From an archaeon (lineage in GTDB: Archaea > Nanobdellota > Nanobdellia > Woesearchaeales > UBA9642), in the NCBI GenBank assembly GCA_020057295.1, contig JAGVGF010000003.1, forward strand, positions 62,001-126,000: a stretch of DNA of 64,000 nt, in the 5' to 3' direction. Position 1 is the stretch's first letter, and every line of letters begins with the position of its first letter. The position numbers were made by a program, and so were the translations under genes. A model generated the notes under the pieces. The model was not told the origin of the DNA. It saw only the letters and a list, made by a program, of their open reading frames with translations, and did no database searches. Positions 7,507-13,391 of this stretch are shown here, in pieces.

Positions 7507-7572
7507 ATTTTCATTTTATTTTTCTTTTCTTCTTTCACAATCTTTAAATAACCCTATCTGATATCATATTCT

Positions 7573-8097
7573 ATGCGTAACAAGTATGTAGGAATAATTG
7601 TTGTTGGTATTTCCTTGCTTATAGGATTTTTAGTATGGTTATTCAATAAATCATTATCAACTATTGTTAACGATAGTTGTAGTCATGGTCCTACATGTCC
7701 TATGTGGGGAAGTATAAGTTTTCAGACTAATGTGGGTTTAGGATTAATGGTTTTTGTAACAGTCGTCGGTTTGTATTTAATATTTTTTGCTAAGGATGAT
7801 CCACAGATAATCAGGGAAGTTCATAGAGAAACAAAAATTGTCAAGGAACAAGTTAAGCCTCGAACTTTAAGTAAAGGGCATTATAGAGATATTTTAGAAA
7901 AATTAGAAGGTGATGATAAGAAAGTTCTTAGTTTAATTATAGATTCTGAAGGTTCTGTATTTCAATCAGAGATAGTTTCAAAAATCGGATTAACAAAAGT
8001 TAAAGTAACAAGAATTCTAGATCGATTAGAAGGTAAAGGTCTTATAGAAAGAAAGAGACGTGGAATGACTAATGTTGTTATACTAAAAAATAATTGA
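7573..8097 (+). CDS. Membrane-bound winged-helix regulator with Cys/His/Met external loop
   Basis: A 174-aa protein with TM helices at about 5-26 and 54-72 and a C-terminal winged helix (about 103-172: two helices, then GLTKVKVTRILDRLEGKGLIERKRRG), as in MarR-like archaeal regulators. The loop between the TMs, predicted outside the cell, contains CSHGPTCPM (C36, H38, C42, M44), all good Cu(I) ligands. It sits immediately upstream of the copper operon. The start is leaderless: TTTAAATA lies about 26 nt upstream. A copper-sensing transcription factor is inferred from the motif and context; metal binding is not shown. Confidence 0.75.
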   Translation: MRNKYVGIIVVGISLLIGFLVWLFNKSLSTIVNDSCSHGPTCPMWGSISFQTNVGLGLMVFVTVVGLYLIFFAKDDPQIIREVHRETKIVKEQVKPRTLSKGHYRDILEKLEGDDKKVLSLIIDSEGSVFQSEIVSKIGLTKVKVTRILDRLEGKGLIERKRRGMTNVVILKNN

Positions 8098-8109
8098 TTC
8101 TTCATAATA

Positions 8110-8157
8110 CTTATAAATGCTTATTTTATACTTAGTTCTATGCGTAACAGTTCTTGA
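8110..8157 (+). promoter_or_regulatory. Leader promoter and 5-codon mini-ORF before the copper operon
   Basis: CTTATAAATG (8110-8119) is centred 26 nt before an ATG at 8140 that opens MRNSS-stop, the same TTCTATGCGTAAC start context as the regulator gene at 7573. A second TATA-like box (GTTTATAAG, 8176) could serve the first operon gene directly. The mini-ORF may be a decoy of the start context or a translated leader. Confidence 0.35.
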
Positions 8158-8237
8158 AACTGGTTTCACTACTATGTTTATAAGGAGTTTCATTATCCTA
8201 TATACTAGAACTATTGAATTAGCTCAAGGGTGTAACT

Positions 8238-9053
8238 ATGAAAGATTTTATTATTAAGAGAAAATTTGCAGTAATACTAACATGTATATTGCTTATAGTT
8301 GGTACAACACTATATTTTACATTGGGTGCTTACAATCTTGGAGAAATGTCAATAAAAAGCGCAGCTACAATTGAAGAATTAAATGTATTACGTAATGTCC
8401 AATTGAAAGCAGCATATACTGAAGAAGGTAGTATAGATATGTTTGTTCTTGCAAGAAATAATGATCTATCTAAGATTAAACCATTACAAGGTAATTCTAT
8501 ACCCGAAATAGGTGGTATGGTTATAGGTAATGTCGAAGGATCGATGATGCAAGAAGAAAACGAGTTTAAGAATATAGGAGATACTTTAGTTGATTATGAT
8601 ATTACTTTTAGAATTGATGGAATTCTTGATAAGACAGGAACATTCATGGATGATTTTCATTTTATAAGTTCAGAAGAATACACTAAACTATCTGGTGAAG
8701 AAAATGTTTTATTTGTAAAGTTCAAAGATGCAAAAACTCCCAAACTATTTTATTTGTACGATAAGAATAATCCTTCACCAGCGAAAATATCTTTATCAGA
8801 AGGTAATATAAATTTTTACTACAAACATATTATCGGCAAAAAAATCTATTATCCTATAATCATTGGCTATGAAGAGGCTAAGATGATGCGTGAAGAAAAA
8901 TTATTCAATAAAGTAGGAGATACTCTTGAAGGATTTTTTGATAGAGATGTTATGATTGTCGGAATAACACAAAAAACAGATACGGGCTTAGATATGATGC
9001 ATGTTGTAGAAAAAGATTTTTTCGATGAATCATTAAGAGGAACATTAGTATAG
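8238..9053 (+). CDS. Membrane-anchored extracytoplasmic protein with duplicated MacB-PCD-like module
   Basis: A 271-aa protein, first gene of the copper operon, with ribosome site AGGGTG. One N-terminal TM helix (about 10-30) anchors a large external part. Residues 92-144 and 205-257 are an internal repeat with matching elements: V/IIG, MM.EE, F..GDTL, I.GI..KT.T, then D..H. Each unit ends like the GDxxxxxxxxxxVxGI segment of MacB/FtsX periplasmic core domains. Paired methionines (MM three times) are notable. No permease TM helices are present, so it is not an FtsX permease. A role in copper binding or delivery is inferred from the operon only. Confidence 0.65.
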   Translation: MKDFIIKRKFAVILTCILLIVGTTLYFTLGAYNLGEMSIKSAATIEELNVLRNVQLKAAYTEEGSIDMFVLARNNDLSKIKPLQGNSIPEIGGMVIGNVEGSMMQEENEFKNIGDTLVDYDITFRIDGILDKTGTFMDDFHFISSEEYTKLSGEENVLFVKFKDAKTPKLFYLYDKNNPSPAKISLSEGNINFYYKHIIGKKIYYPIIIGYEEAKMMREEKLFNKVGDTLEGFFDRDVMIVGITQKTDTGLDMMHVVEKDFFDESLRGTLV

Positions 9054-9061
9054 GTGAAAAT

Positions 9062-9271
9062 ATGAAAGATATTGAATTAAAACTTAAAGGAATGCATTGC
9101 AAAAGTTGTGTGATATTAGTTAATGATGCCTTAACAGATATTAAAGGTGTAAAATCTGCAAATGCCAATTTAGAGAAGAGTAATGTAAAGATATCATTTG
9201 ATGATAATTTAGTAAAAGAAAAGCAATTGATTGACGCGATTGAAAAAGAGGGCTATAAGGTGAATAAATAA
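9062..9271 (+). CDS. copZ: Copper chaperone, heavy-metal-associated domain
   Basis: A 69-aa stand-alone HMA domain with ferredoxin-like fold; GMHCKSC (C13, C16) binds Cu(I). It would carry copper to the ATPase encoded next, whose start codon overlaps this stop by one base (TAATG). It begins 8 nt after the preceding stop with a GGTG site. The metal could also be Ag(I); zinc is less likely given the partner. Confidence 0.9.
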
Positions 9272-11505
9272 TGGCAAAGAAGACAGATCTTAATATTGTA
9301 GGAATGCATTGCGCAAGTTGTTCTACACTAATAAATAGAGCTTTATCGAAGACTGAAGGAATAACGGAAGCAAATGTTAATTATGCTACAGCTAAAGCAC
9401 GCGTAGTTTATGATGAAAATAAAGTCTCTGAAGAGGACTTAATAAAAATTGTTCAATCTAAAGGTTACGATGCATCTATTAGCAGTAAAAATGATGCTGT
9501 TAATAAAGAATTATCTCAGAAAAAAGAAATTGAGGAAATAAAGAATAGCTTATATTTTAGTTTAATATTTACGATTCCAGCATTTTTAATCGGAATGGTC
9601 TTAATGTCGCTTGGTGTTAATGTTCCTTACGATCTATTTATATTATTCTTACTTGCAACACCGGTTCAATTTATTGTAGCATCAGATATCTACAAAAGTG
9701 CATGGGTCGCATTAAAAAATAAGACTGCAAATATGGATTCTTTAATAGCCATAGGAACTAGTGCAGCATACTTGTTTAGTATTTATGCAATATTTTTTGA
9801 TCCTATTCTTGGTCAATATTTTGAAACATCAGCAATTCTTATAACTTTTGTAATATTTGGAAGATATCTTGAAATTAATGCTAAAGGTAAAACATCCGAG
9901 GCAATAAAGAAACTTATGGAATTATCACCAAAAATAGCGACAGTTATTAGAAAAATTAACGGAAAAAATAAAGAAATGCAGATACCTGTAGATCAAGTAG
10001 TTTTGAATGATATTATCATCGTAAAACCTGGAGAAAAAGTTCCAGTTGATGGAATCCTGTTAGAAGGATTATCTTCTGTCGATGAAAGTATGATTACAGG
10101 AGAGAGCATCCCCGTAGAAAAAAAGAAAGGAGATACAGTAATAGGCGGAACAATAAACAAACACGGAACTTTTACATTTAAGGCAACGAAAGTAGGCGAA
10201 AATACTACTCTTGCAAATATAATAAAATTAATTGAAGATGCTCAAGGAAAGAAAGCTCCAATACAAAGATTTGCGGATAATATTTCTGCATATTTTGTGC
10301 CTGTAGTAATACTTATTGCGATTGTAACATTTAGTGTGTGGTTTTTCTGGGTAGGAAAACCCATAGCATTTGCACTGATTACAGCAGTTTCAGTATTAGT
10401 AATCGCATGTCCTTGTGCTTTAGGTCTTGCAACACCTACATCAATAATTGTGGGAACAGGAAAAGGTGCGAAAGAGGGAATACTAATTAAAGGAGCAGAT
10501 TCTCTTGAAGCAGCACACAAAGTTAAATATGTTATATTTGATAAAACAGGAACTATAACTAATGGTAAACCAGAAACAACTGACGTGATATCTTTTGAGA
10601 AGAGCATATCTCAAGATTCATTACTAAAGATAGCAGCATCTATAGAAAAACCTTCAGAACATCCTCTTGCAGATGCAATAGTCAGAAAGGCAAACGAAGA
10701 AAAATTAGCTATAATAAAAATTAAGAATTTTAAAGCAATACCAGGTTATGGAATTTCTGCGAAGATATCAAGCAAGCAATATTATTTTGGAAATACTAAA
10801 TTAATGCAGAAACAAAAAATTTCTGTAAGTAAATATGAAAGCAGAATTCAAGATATTGAAGAACAAGGAAAAACTGTAATGATATTATCTAATACAAAGA
10901 AAATTCTTGGAATAATCGCTGTTGCCGATACTATTAAGGAAACATCAAAACTTGCTGTAAAACAATTACAAGATATGGGTGTTGAAGTTTATCTAATTAC
11001 AGGAGATAATGTTAGAACTGCAGGAGCAATTGCAAAGCAGGCAGGTATAAAGCAAGATAATGTATTTTCTGAAGTCCTTCCTGAAGATAAGGCAAACTAT
11101 GTGAAGAAATTGCAGGATAAAAAAGATAAAAAGGGAAATTTTGCAAAAGTTGTAATGGTTGGTGATGGTGTAAATGATGCTCCAGCACTTGCACAGGCCG
11201 ATATTGGAATTGCAATGGGATCTGGAACAGATGTTGCTATGGAGTCAGGAAATATTGTATTAATGAAAAATGACTTACTTGATGTTCCAAAAGCGATCAA
11301 GTTAAGCAAACAAACCATGACTAAAATAAAACAGAACATGTTCTGGGCATTATTTTACAATGTCTTAGGAATACCAATAGCGGCAGGAGTACTGTATCCT
11401 TTTACAGGATGGCTTCTAAGCCCTATAATCGCTGGTGGAGCAATGGCACTTTCAAGCGTTAGTGTTGTAACAAATAGTTTATTGTTAAAGAGTTCAAAAT
11501 TGTAA
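9271..11505 (+). CDS. copA: Cu(I)-exporting P1B-type ATPase
   Basis: A 744-aa P1B-1 ATPase of usual length that pumps Cu(I) out of the cytoplasm. In order it has an N-terminal HMA domain (GMHCASC, C14/C17), TM helices, the actuator TGES (about 276), the transport motif [10 protein letters not shown] (about 379), the phosphorylation site DKTGT (about 424) and the hinge [10 protein letters not shown] (about 630). The CPC motif indicates Cu(I)/Ag(I). Translation is coupled to copZ by a one-base overlap. Downstream are a Met-rich membrane protein and cupredoxins. Confidence 0.95.
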
Positions 11506-11543: not shown

Positions 11544-12251
11544 ATGGTTAAAAATGAAAATTTAAATAAGAAAAAGCTTATGGCATTAAAATTTACAGAC
11601 AGCAATAAAATGTATTCTTATATGTTAGTTGCTTTCTTAGTATTATTAATATTAGATTTGATTGCATATTTTGGTTTTTTAAATAGAATTCCTGATTTTG
11701 CAAACAAATTCGGTTTCTGGATTTTTTATTTGAATATTAGTATCGTCACAATTGGTGGTTCTGTATGGTATTATGTAACTCACAAAGGTTATGTAAGCTG
11801 TATGGCTAGCATGATGATTGGAATGACTATAGGAATGCAAACTGGAATGATGATTGGAGCAGTATTCGGAGCTGTTAATGGATATTTTGTTGGTGCAATG
11901 GTCGGCATGATTCTTGGTGCATTAACAGGAGCGTTAAGCGGTAAAGATAGTATAATGGGATGGCTTCAGGGAATGATGATGGGATTAATGGGTGGAACAA
12001 TGGGTGCAATGATTACTGTAATGATGTTCACAGATAATGTATTATGGTTCATGCCATTCTATACTATACTCAATGTCTTATTGTTATTAGGATTTAATTA
12101 CATGTATTATGATGAAGTTGTAAGAGATAATAAAGAATTAATTAAAACAGATATAGATATTTTCACATTCATATCTGCATGTGTAATAGTAACTACTATC
12201 TTAACTGTTTTAATGATTTATGCACCAAAATCGGTGCTGTTCGGAGGATAA
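11544..12251 (+). CDS. Met-rich glycine-zipper membrane protein in the copper operon
   Basis: A 235-aa integral membrane protein with about six hydrophobic segments. Residues about 86-160 are packed with Met and Gly (for example ASMMIGMTIGMQTGMMIGA and LQGMMMGLMGGTMGAM) with glycine spacings typical of tightly packed helices. Methionine-lined helices are known in Cu(I) transport proteins such as Ctr1, but this sequence is not Ctr1-like in length or layout. It follows copA by 38 nt with an AGGTGAT site. A Cu(I) channel or binding role is inferred; I do not recognise the family. Confidence 0.65.
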   Translation: MVKNENLNKKKLMALKFTDSNKMYSYMLVAFLVLLILDLIAYFGFLNRIPDFANKFGFWIFYLNISIVTIGGSVWYYVTHKGYVSCMASMMIGMTIGMQTGMMIGAVFGAVNGYFVGAMVGMILGALTGALSGKDSIMGWLQGMMMGLMGGTMGAMITVMMFTDNVLWFMPFYTILNVLLLLGFNYMYYDEVVRDNKELIKTDIDIFTFISACVIVTTILTVLMIYAPKSVLFGG

Positions 12252-12252
12252 A

Positions 12253-12849
12253 ATGAAAGATGTTTCAAAAATAATATTAGGAATAGTTGCGAGTTTAATA
12301 GTTATATCGGTGTTAGGACTATCTGCTAAAGCTCTAGTTTCGCCGACATTCTTGTCAACAAACAACTACGGCAATAATGGTGCACAGGTATCGCAAACAC
12401 AAAATACTTTATCAGGAAATACTCAAATTAATACTCAGACATCGCCCTTAGTTCAAGGAAATGTTCAAGAGGTTTCTCTTAAAGTTGTAGGTTCATCATA
12501 TGTTTTGAATCCTTCAGTACTAAAGAAAGGAGTTCCAGTTAGAATGACCGCAGATATTAATAATATGCCTGGTTGTTCTAAAGGTTTTAGAATTCCAGAC
12601 TTTAGTGTTACAAAGTCTATCCGTCCAGGAGATACTGTTGTAGAATTTACTCCTGATAAAACAGGAACATTTACGATTGCGTGTTTTATGAATATGTACC
12701 GTGGAACATTTAGTGTTACTGATGATGGAAGTGCTCCAACTGGAGAAGCGGCAAAGCAAGCAACACAAGTTCAAGCAACAGTTGCAAAACCAAGCGGTGG
12801 CGGATGTACAATGGGTGCGGGTGGCGGTGGCTGCGGTTGTGGTGGATAA
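12253..12849 (+). CDS. Secreted cupredoxin-like protein with Cys/Gly tail
   Basis: I use the ATG at 12253 (TCGGAGG site), one base after the previous stop, giving 198 aa. A hydrophobic N-terminal segment (about 5-25) exports or anchors it; a Ser/Thr/Asn/Gln linker follows (about 30-72), then a cupredoxin-like beta domain (about 73-152). Candidate ligands are the Cys in PGCSK and the Cys and Mets in ACFMNMYRG, so the site looks thiolate/thioether-type rather than the classical His2-Cys-Met. The tail ends GGGCTMGAGGGGCGCGG, a second likely metal site. It is paralogous to the next gene. Confidence 0.75.
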   Translation: MKDVSKIILGIVASLIVISVLGLSAKALVSPTFLSTNNYGNNGAQVSQTQNTLSGNTQINTQTSPLVQGNVQEVSLKVVGSSYVLNPSVLKKGVPVRMTADINNMPGCSKGFRIPDFSVTKSIRPGDTVVEFTPDKTGTFTIACFMNMYRGTFSVTDDGSAPTGEAAKQATQVQATVAKPSGGGCTMGAGGGGCGCGG

Positions 12850-12890: not shown

Positions 12891-13391
12891 ATGACTGATG
12901 ATAAAATAAGATGTGAGCTTTGTGATAGAGAATTTGCTAGTCAGGAAGCTATAGATGCACATAACAAATCTAAACATCACACTATTCACAGAGAAAAACG
13001 CAATAAATTTCCAACTATAATTATATCAGTTACAGCAATAATAATTCTTATTATAATAGGATTTGTAATATTTAGTACTACGGTTAATAAACCTATTAAT
13101 ACAAATAATACTTCCTCATCAGGCAACGTTCAAACAGCCACACTAAGTGTTTCTGGATCTAAATATATACTTGAGCCTTCTGTTTTTAAGAAAGATGTTC
13201 CTGTACAATTAACCGCAGATGTTAGTAGTATGCCTGGTTGTTCTAAATCTGTAACTATACCAACATTTGGTGTATTAAAATATGTTACGCCTAACGATAA
13301 CACCATAACATTCACACCGACAAAGGTAGGAACGTTTAGAATAGCATGTTCAATGAGCATGTATATAGGAAGTTTTACAGTTACAGAATAA
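12891..13391 (+). CDS. C2H2 zinc finger - TM - cupredoxin fusion
   Basis: A 166-aa protein with three parts: an N-terminal C2H2 finger (C8-x2-C11-x12-H24-x4-H29), a basic stretch and one TM helix (about 41-63), then a cupredoxin-like domain (about 85-166) sharing PGCSK and AC.M.MY.G.F with its neighbour. The basic residues before the TM predict the finger inside and the cupredoxin outside. It is last in the copper operon, 41 nt after the previous gene, with a GGTG site. It could signal external copper to a DNA- or protein-binding finger; this is inference. No gap or frameshift suggests an artefactual fusion. Confidence 0.8.
   Translation: MTDDKIRCELCDREFASQEAIDAHNKSKHHTIHREKRNKFPTIIISVTAIIILIIIGFVIFSTTVNKPINTNNTSSSGNVQTATLSVSGSKYILEPSVFKKDVPVQLTADVSSMPGCSKSVTIPTFGVLKYVTPNDNTITFTPTKVGTFRIACSMSMYIGSFTVTE

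Follow-up and report, generated by a model that had tools for sequence, protein, structure and literature searches.

The gene at 7573-8097 of the analysed window, a 64,000-nucleotide stretch of DNA, is predicted to encode a one-component transmembrane copper regulator that senses Cu(I) outside the cell and recognises the sequence GAAACTRGTTTC, probably as an apo-repressor. We give this reading a probability of about 0.7. A preliminary description of this DNA had proposed a compact transmembrane copper switch, with metal ligands outside and a DNA-binding domain inside in a single polypeptide. The support now available for that proposal is genomic: the architecture, the invariant ligand set, the directional linkage to copper genes, an operator that follows those genes, and co-loss.

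Architecture and candidate metal-binding loop of the predicted regulator

The open reading frame had been placed exactly, its opposite strand is closed by many stop codons, and the membrane hairpin and winged helix described for its product are found in the profile and AlphaFold2 results (Table 1). All four residues named as candidate ligands, C36, H38, C42 and M44, stand at the claimed positions between two hydrophobic segments. The regulator transcript is probably leaderless: a TATA-like box precedes the start codon by about 25 nt, and the AT-rich box recurs in the upstream regions of orthologs, about 25-30 nt 5' of the start codon.

Table 1. Features of the regulator gene and the adjacent cop operon (positions in the window).
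Feature	Position	Strand	Basis or remarks
TATA-like box of the regulator's own promoter	7543..7550	+	sequence reading
Regulator gene	7573..8097	+	ORF, 174 aa + stop, protein with two transmembrane (TM) helices and a winged helix
Helix 3-35 including TM1	7579..7677	+	AlphaFold2 secondary structure, alignment of close orthologs
Hairpin tip C36-S-H38-G-P-T-C42-P-M44, predicted external, candidate Cu(I) ligands	7678..7704	+	conservation
Helix 43-72 including TM2	7699..7788	+	AlphaFold2
Winged helix, residues 101-171, predicted cytoplasmic	7873..8085	+	profiles, alignment, AlphaFold2, structure search
Predicted operator of the cop operon, GAAACTGGTTTC-N19-GTTTC	8156..8191	+	palindrome 8156-8167, half-site 8187-8191
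TATA box TTTATAAG of the cop promoter, inside the predicted operator	8177..8184	+	sequence, conserved register
First gene of the cop operon, 271 aa, no family assigned	8238..9053	+	ORF, profile searches
CopZ-like HMA chaperone	9062..9271	+	PF00403, 1.5e-15
CopA, Cu(I) P1B ATPase	9271..11505	+	TIGR01511, 647 bits against a cut-off of 397
Glycine-rich membrane protein, recurs in cop operons	11544..12251	+	
Cupredoxin-like protein 1	12250..12849	+	PF13473 1.7e-6, TIGR03096 2.9e-9
Cupredoxin-like protein 2, N-terminal zinc finger + TM	12891..13391	+	profile search

The structure was predicted with AlphaFold2 as a monomer from an alignment of 58 sequences and reached a mean pLDDT of 88.2 and a pTM of 0.51, the latter probably owing to a loose connection between the two parts of the protein. 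The chain runs from helix 3-35 through a tight turn (36-42) into helix 43-72, followed by a linker helix (77-92) and the winged helix (101-171). Because of this modelled helix-turn-helix order, the CxHxxxCxM motif forms the tip of a helical hairpin. According to the positive-inside rule, the loop should lie outside and both termini inside, since the N-terminus is positively charged (MRNK; M-[KR]-N-[KR]) and a charged stretch follows TM2.

The winged helix, with the recognition helix TKVKVTRILDRLEGK and the wing RKRRGMTN, exceeded the thresholds of two Pfam profiles, DUF7343 (PF24034; residues 113-171, E 1.2e-12, 47.9 bits against a gathering score of 27.6) and MarR (PF01047; E 7e-9, 35.9 bits against a cut-off of 24.6). 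The N- and C-terminal dimerisation helices of soluble MarR proteins were absent from the AlphaFold2 model; the TM hairpin and the linker helix stand in their place and the chain stops after the wing. A search of solved structures returned winged-helix relatives only (MarR, CodY, ArsR and CadC of pI258) and gave no match to the hairpin. We assign the DNA-binding domain to the MarR-like/DUF7343 type and do not file the whole regulator as a MarR protein: classic MarR proteins are soluble, and the hairpin sensor lies outside both the MarR and the DUF7343 profiles.

Across the order, 97 of 193 genomes contained homologs and 23 a close ortholog, with orthologs spread over 17 families. When 22 close orthologs were aligned (mean column identity 57%), C36, G39, C42 and M44 were invariant and H38 was present in 21. 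Relatives in named contigs came from Woesearchaeota, Pacearchaeota, Aenigmatarchaeota, Micrarchaeota, Nanohalarchaeota, Parvarchaeota and one Altiarchaeota bin. The architecture that the preliminary description had suggested searching for thus recurs in many DPANN lineages, and the accompanying C.H...C.M signature proved near-invariant: C36, G39, C42 and M44 were found in 78 of 78 relatives with a readable loop and H38 in 76, the other two having one Met and one Glu. The scan of named contigs relied in part on the loop as its query; the DNA-binding pattern RKRRGMTN could have found 62 rows without the loop, and 60 of these retained both His and Met. Even among 58 homologs with 26-61% identity to the query, C36 belonged to the only five invariant columns and C42 was kept in at least 90%. 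Invariance across lineages excludes the loop as a chance coincidence.

Copper genes and the conserved promoter element

The regulator had been described as standing directly upstream of a copper operon. CopZ, CopA and cupredoxin genes do follow on the same strand, but the nearest gene is that of the 271-aa protein and not copZ. This protein matched no Pfam or NCBIfam family; its relatives are present in two other DPANN cop loci (L058 and L124), which makes a copper role likely. From 9053 onward the gaps between genes do not exceed about 40 nt, and an alternative in-frame ATG of cupredoxin-like protein 1 lies upstream at 12220. In the complete 1.2-Mb genome CopA is the only match above the Cu-ATPase cut-off and CsoR (PF02583) was not found. 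The TRASH domain (PF08394) is absent from the regulator and from the whole genome, which has no TRASH-type CopR.

Copper genes (CopA, CopZ, cupredoxin or related) were found downstream on the same strand in 54 of 62 named loci and upstream in 3 of 64 (flank of at least 3 kb), a directional bias that argues for a regulatory relation over loose clustering. The same linkage in other genomes excludes a peculiarity of the window's genome and establishes copA as a frequent neighbour beyond it, a point that the preliminary description had proposed to check. Of the two outcomes it had named as refuting, homologs devoid of the Cys/His/Met residues and a copper link confined to this genome, neither was borne out. 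Other recurrent members of the operons are FtrD-like and DsbA-like proteins. Furthermore, we observed a recurrent single-chain fusion of HMA, DsbD_2 and cupredoxin domains of about 500 aa (L045:6070-7641, L046:8789-10273, L053:8796-10202 and many others) in DPANN cop operons; it is plausibly a membrane protein that relays copper.

Side-by-side reading of ortholog intergenic regions revealed a 36-bp element that is absent from the preliminary description and is newly recognised here. It consists of GAAACTRGTTTC, exactly 19 bp and GTTTC, with the TATA box TTATAAG within the spacer. The window copy, GAAACTGGTTTCACTACTATGTTTATAAGGAGTTTC, lies within 8098-8237, the region earlier proposed as the DNA target; it is the only match with up to three mismatches in the window and the only one with up to one mismatch in the 1.2-Mb genome. 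Across 88 sites the consensus reads TGAAACTAGTTTCA ... TTATAAG ... GTTTCA, with TTATAAG at a constant register; these sites were collected by a pattern fixing most bases, and its independent part consists of the flanking T and A, the terminal GTTTCA and the register of the TATA box. The downstream GTTTC stands 2-3 bp past the TATA box at the fixed 19-bp spacing and is conserved equally with the palindrome.

Exact copies of the element occur in 42 of the 193 genomes, where base composition predicts about 0.14 for the full set, and 39 of these 42 genomes have a regulator homolog (Fisher p 5e-11, kinship of the genomes ignored). The three others are G128 and G189, where the operators lie near contig ends, and G158, where the TATA box is absent. 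With up to one mismatch the element is present in 22 of the 23 genomes of the order that have a close ortholog (subfamily I); the exception, G162, carries the only H38E regulator and lacks both the element and copper neighbours. Of eight genomes without an exact element right after the regulator gene, five carry one elsewhere, two further along the regulator's contig and three on other contigs. These displaced elements stand before CopZ, FtrD-DsbA-CopZ, an HMA-membrane protein, CopZ-TM-cupredoxin and the operon of a dsL073-type protein. The element often starts at or overlaps the regulator stop codon; that it is part of the regulator's 3' end is excluded, as it stays with the copper genes after the regulator has moved away. 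From these positions the operator is read as belonging to the copper genes and not as a by-product of the regulator coding sequence. On genomic grounds, linkage of both the gene and its operator to Cu(I) transport genes marks the protein as a putative copper metalloregulator. No element was seen upstream of the regulator genes examined, except for a degenerate copy in L059, and on this comparison autoregulation is not generally supported.

Two side observations concern the same region. An identical 14-mer, TTCTATGCGTAACA, occurs at 7569-7582 (regulator start codon) and at 8136-8149 (intergenic), both copies about 25-30 nt past a TATA-like box, and two matches were obtained in 0 of 100 shuffles. 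The pair is possibly a partial duplication of the promoter and start of the regulator; a first suspicion that this repeat was the operator was dropped, as it was not seen in the ortholog upstream regions compared. In a same-genus genome, a reverse-transcriptase ORF with a C-terminal HTH_40 match (L111:2118-3515) lies just 5' of the operator preceding the copper genes.

Proposed mechanism and the nature of the signal

In the mechanism we propose, Cu(I) would be bound outside the membrane by C36, H38, C42 and M44 of the hairpin tip, alone or across a dimer. Binding would alter the packing of the hairpins, and the signal would pass via TM2 and the linker helix to the winged helices. A dimer of these cytoplasmic MarR-like domains would recognise GAAACTRGTTTC directly upstream of BRE/TATA, and the GTTTC directly downstream of the TATA box probably marks a second site. 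The apo form most likely blocks TBP/TFB; its release by copper would switch on CopZ, CopA and the cupredoxins.

The same transmembrane sensor could possibly act as an activator, the metal-bound dimer recruiting TFB/TBP from the palindrome, since in Pyrococcus the sites of CopR directly upstream of BRE, the position of the palindrome here, serve activation (PMC7830388). Against this less favoured sign of regulation stands the invariant GTTTC 2-3 bp past the TATA box, where a bound protein would be expected to collide with TBP/TFB. Repression is, moreover, the usual role of MarR/ArsR-like winged helices. A repressor that leaves on copper binding is therefore moderately favoured, as the second GTTTC would put protein on both sides of TBP.

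With regard to the signal, the wider family retains C36 and C42, and the His and Met positions shift between divergent subfamilies. Subfamily II has the loop LC-x8 to 10-M-x2-CPAH and the same operator as subfamily I; its operons contain a DUF411 protein and small genes without assigned function, often with CopA nearby. Subfamily III combines a C-x-H...CP loop, DUF411 or Fer4_5 genes and the same operator. Other subfamilies (CACADTC; CxC...CPM; C-x6-C-x-H) have the recognition helices HKSKLS... or KEKGKT and lack the operator, so that recognition helix and operator co-vary; several subfamilies without this operator still adjoin CopZ/CopA. The loop chemistry varies within a two-Cys theme.

This Cys pair, the sole loop feature common to all two-Cys subfamilies, speaks for a thiol-redox sensor, in which an external C36-C42 disulfide would form and break with DsbA-like or VKOR partners, the winged helix would report envelope redox, and the copper genes would be induced because copper stress oxidises thiols. 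DsbA-like, DsbD_2-containing and FtrD-like genes (thiol-redox or iron-type) also recur in the regulated operons. Although this is the strongest rival on the signal, we consider it unlikely: M44 (78/78) and H38 (76/78) equal the cysteines in constancy within the CopA-linked subfamily, neither residue is required for a simple disulfide, and the single H38M change still leaves a metal ligand. In addition, the operons carry the DsbD_2 domain in fusion with HMA and cupredoxin domains, which points to copper handling. The conservation of Met44 and His38 thus argues against a mere disulfide switch and leaves room for mixed metal/redox sensing.

A further alternative to copper sensing is that the protein responds to a different soft metal (Ag, Hg, Zn or Cd) or to thiophilic metals broadly. 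The candidate ligands would also accommodate Ag(I) and Hg(II), and subfamily IV, with its CACADTC loops, adjoins heavy-metal ATPases that are less CopA-like (37-38% identity). Nevertheless, the window and most orthologs have an ATPase of the Cu(I) type beside CopZ and cupredoxins, which renders a soft metal other than copper improbable as the signal.

Least probable is a purely structural disulfide in a regulator that senses membrane state or a partner protein and owes its copper link to where the gene lies. Paralogs with the 2TM-wHTH fold but without the cysteines do exist, one of them in the window's own genome (G000:C1:230468), so the fold can serve other signals. Yet copper genes lie downstream of 0 of 9 paralogs without the Cys pair and 9 of 12 with it, in a small sample counted by hand, and the operator and copper genes stay together even where the regulator gene is elsewhere.

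Two further observations were made on the divergent subfamilies. In five loci (L115:5138-9258, L113, L118, L123 and L124) 6-8 small proteins, mostly without a Pfam match, surround the DUF411 protein together with a subfamily II regulator and the same operator. The DUF411 operon under subfamily II is an unexplored candidate copper pathway, and a literature search on CopG/DUF411 found no papers. Subfamily IV seems to have its own conserved downstream element, GTCTARAGCC...GGAATTAGCCC, in L063 and L069 (inspected by eye).

Relation to known regulators and implications

Proteins of the bacterial CadC/ToxR family have an N-terminal OmpR-type winged helix, one TM helix and a large C-terminal periplasmic domain, and respond to other signals. 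With two TM helices, a MarR-type winged helix and no outside domain, the regulator falls outside this group, though both are transmembrane one-component DNA-binding regulators (PMC5430869). ArnR/ArnR1 of Sulfolobus likewise combine an HTH and two TM helices in one archaeal polypeptide, but in the opposite domain order, with an N-terminal HTH, a HAMP and sensor domain and C-terminal TM helices; their signal is starvation, their output the archaellum, and a metal loop is not described for them (PMC6396743). Here the TM pair is N-terminal and the winged helix C-terminal, which sets the protein apart from the ArnR type. The Lrp-like, TRASH-type CopR of Pyrococcus, Thermococcus and Sulfolobus is also archaeal, copper-responsive and encoded next to copA, and has a palindromic site directly upstream of BRE (PMC7830388). 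In contrast to our regulator, it is soluble and octameric, with a cytoplasmic TRASH (and His) sensor and without a membrane segment.

Most DNA-binding one-component regulators have no transmembrane region and respond to cytoplasmic signals; in bacteria, external copper is sensed by two-component kinases and the one-component copper sensors are cytoplasmic (PMC10141476). The histidine kinases CusS/PcoS/CopS resemble the proposed regulator in sensing Cu/Ag outside the cytoplasmic membrane (PMC10141476), but they act in two-component systems of kinase and response regulator and sense with a folded periplasmic domain, where our regulator has a 9-residue hairpin tip. CsoR, CueR and CopY are one-component copper sensors, the CsoR site being Cys-His-Cys (PMC10141476); unlike our regulator they are soluble, sense in the cytoplasm and have unrelated sensor sites. 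By its predicted architecture the regulator is of a membrane-bound one-component type that belongs to none of the CopR, CsoR, ArnR and ToxR groups. A family description was not found in the literature on DUF7343, copper control in DPANN archaea and membrane-bound one-component regulators of copper, nor any paper on copper regulation in DPANN archaea, in a search that covered subscription journals thinly. The family thus looks undescribed as a one-protein transmembrane copper sensor.

We regard it as rather probable that a family of transmembrane one-component metalloregulators extends across the DPANN archaea, with the minimal external hairpin tip as the entire sensor, and that a single protein of 170 residues thereby reads extracytoplasmic copper directly onto the core promoter. 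Several loop variants (C-x-H-G-x2-C-x-M; C-x8-M-x2-CPAH; C-x6-C-x-H; CxC...CPM) would then be joined to one conserved DNA-binding domain and one TATA-enclosing operator. If this is true, a single protein that senses outside copper and binds DNA would rank with the smallest transmembrane metal switches, and its targets would make up the first predicted metal regulon for DPANN archaea, with a defined 36-bp operator. Through this operator, members of the regulon such as the DUF411 operon, the HMA-DsbD-cupredoxin fusions and the 271-aa protein, whose functions are not assigned, could then be attributed to copper handling.
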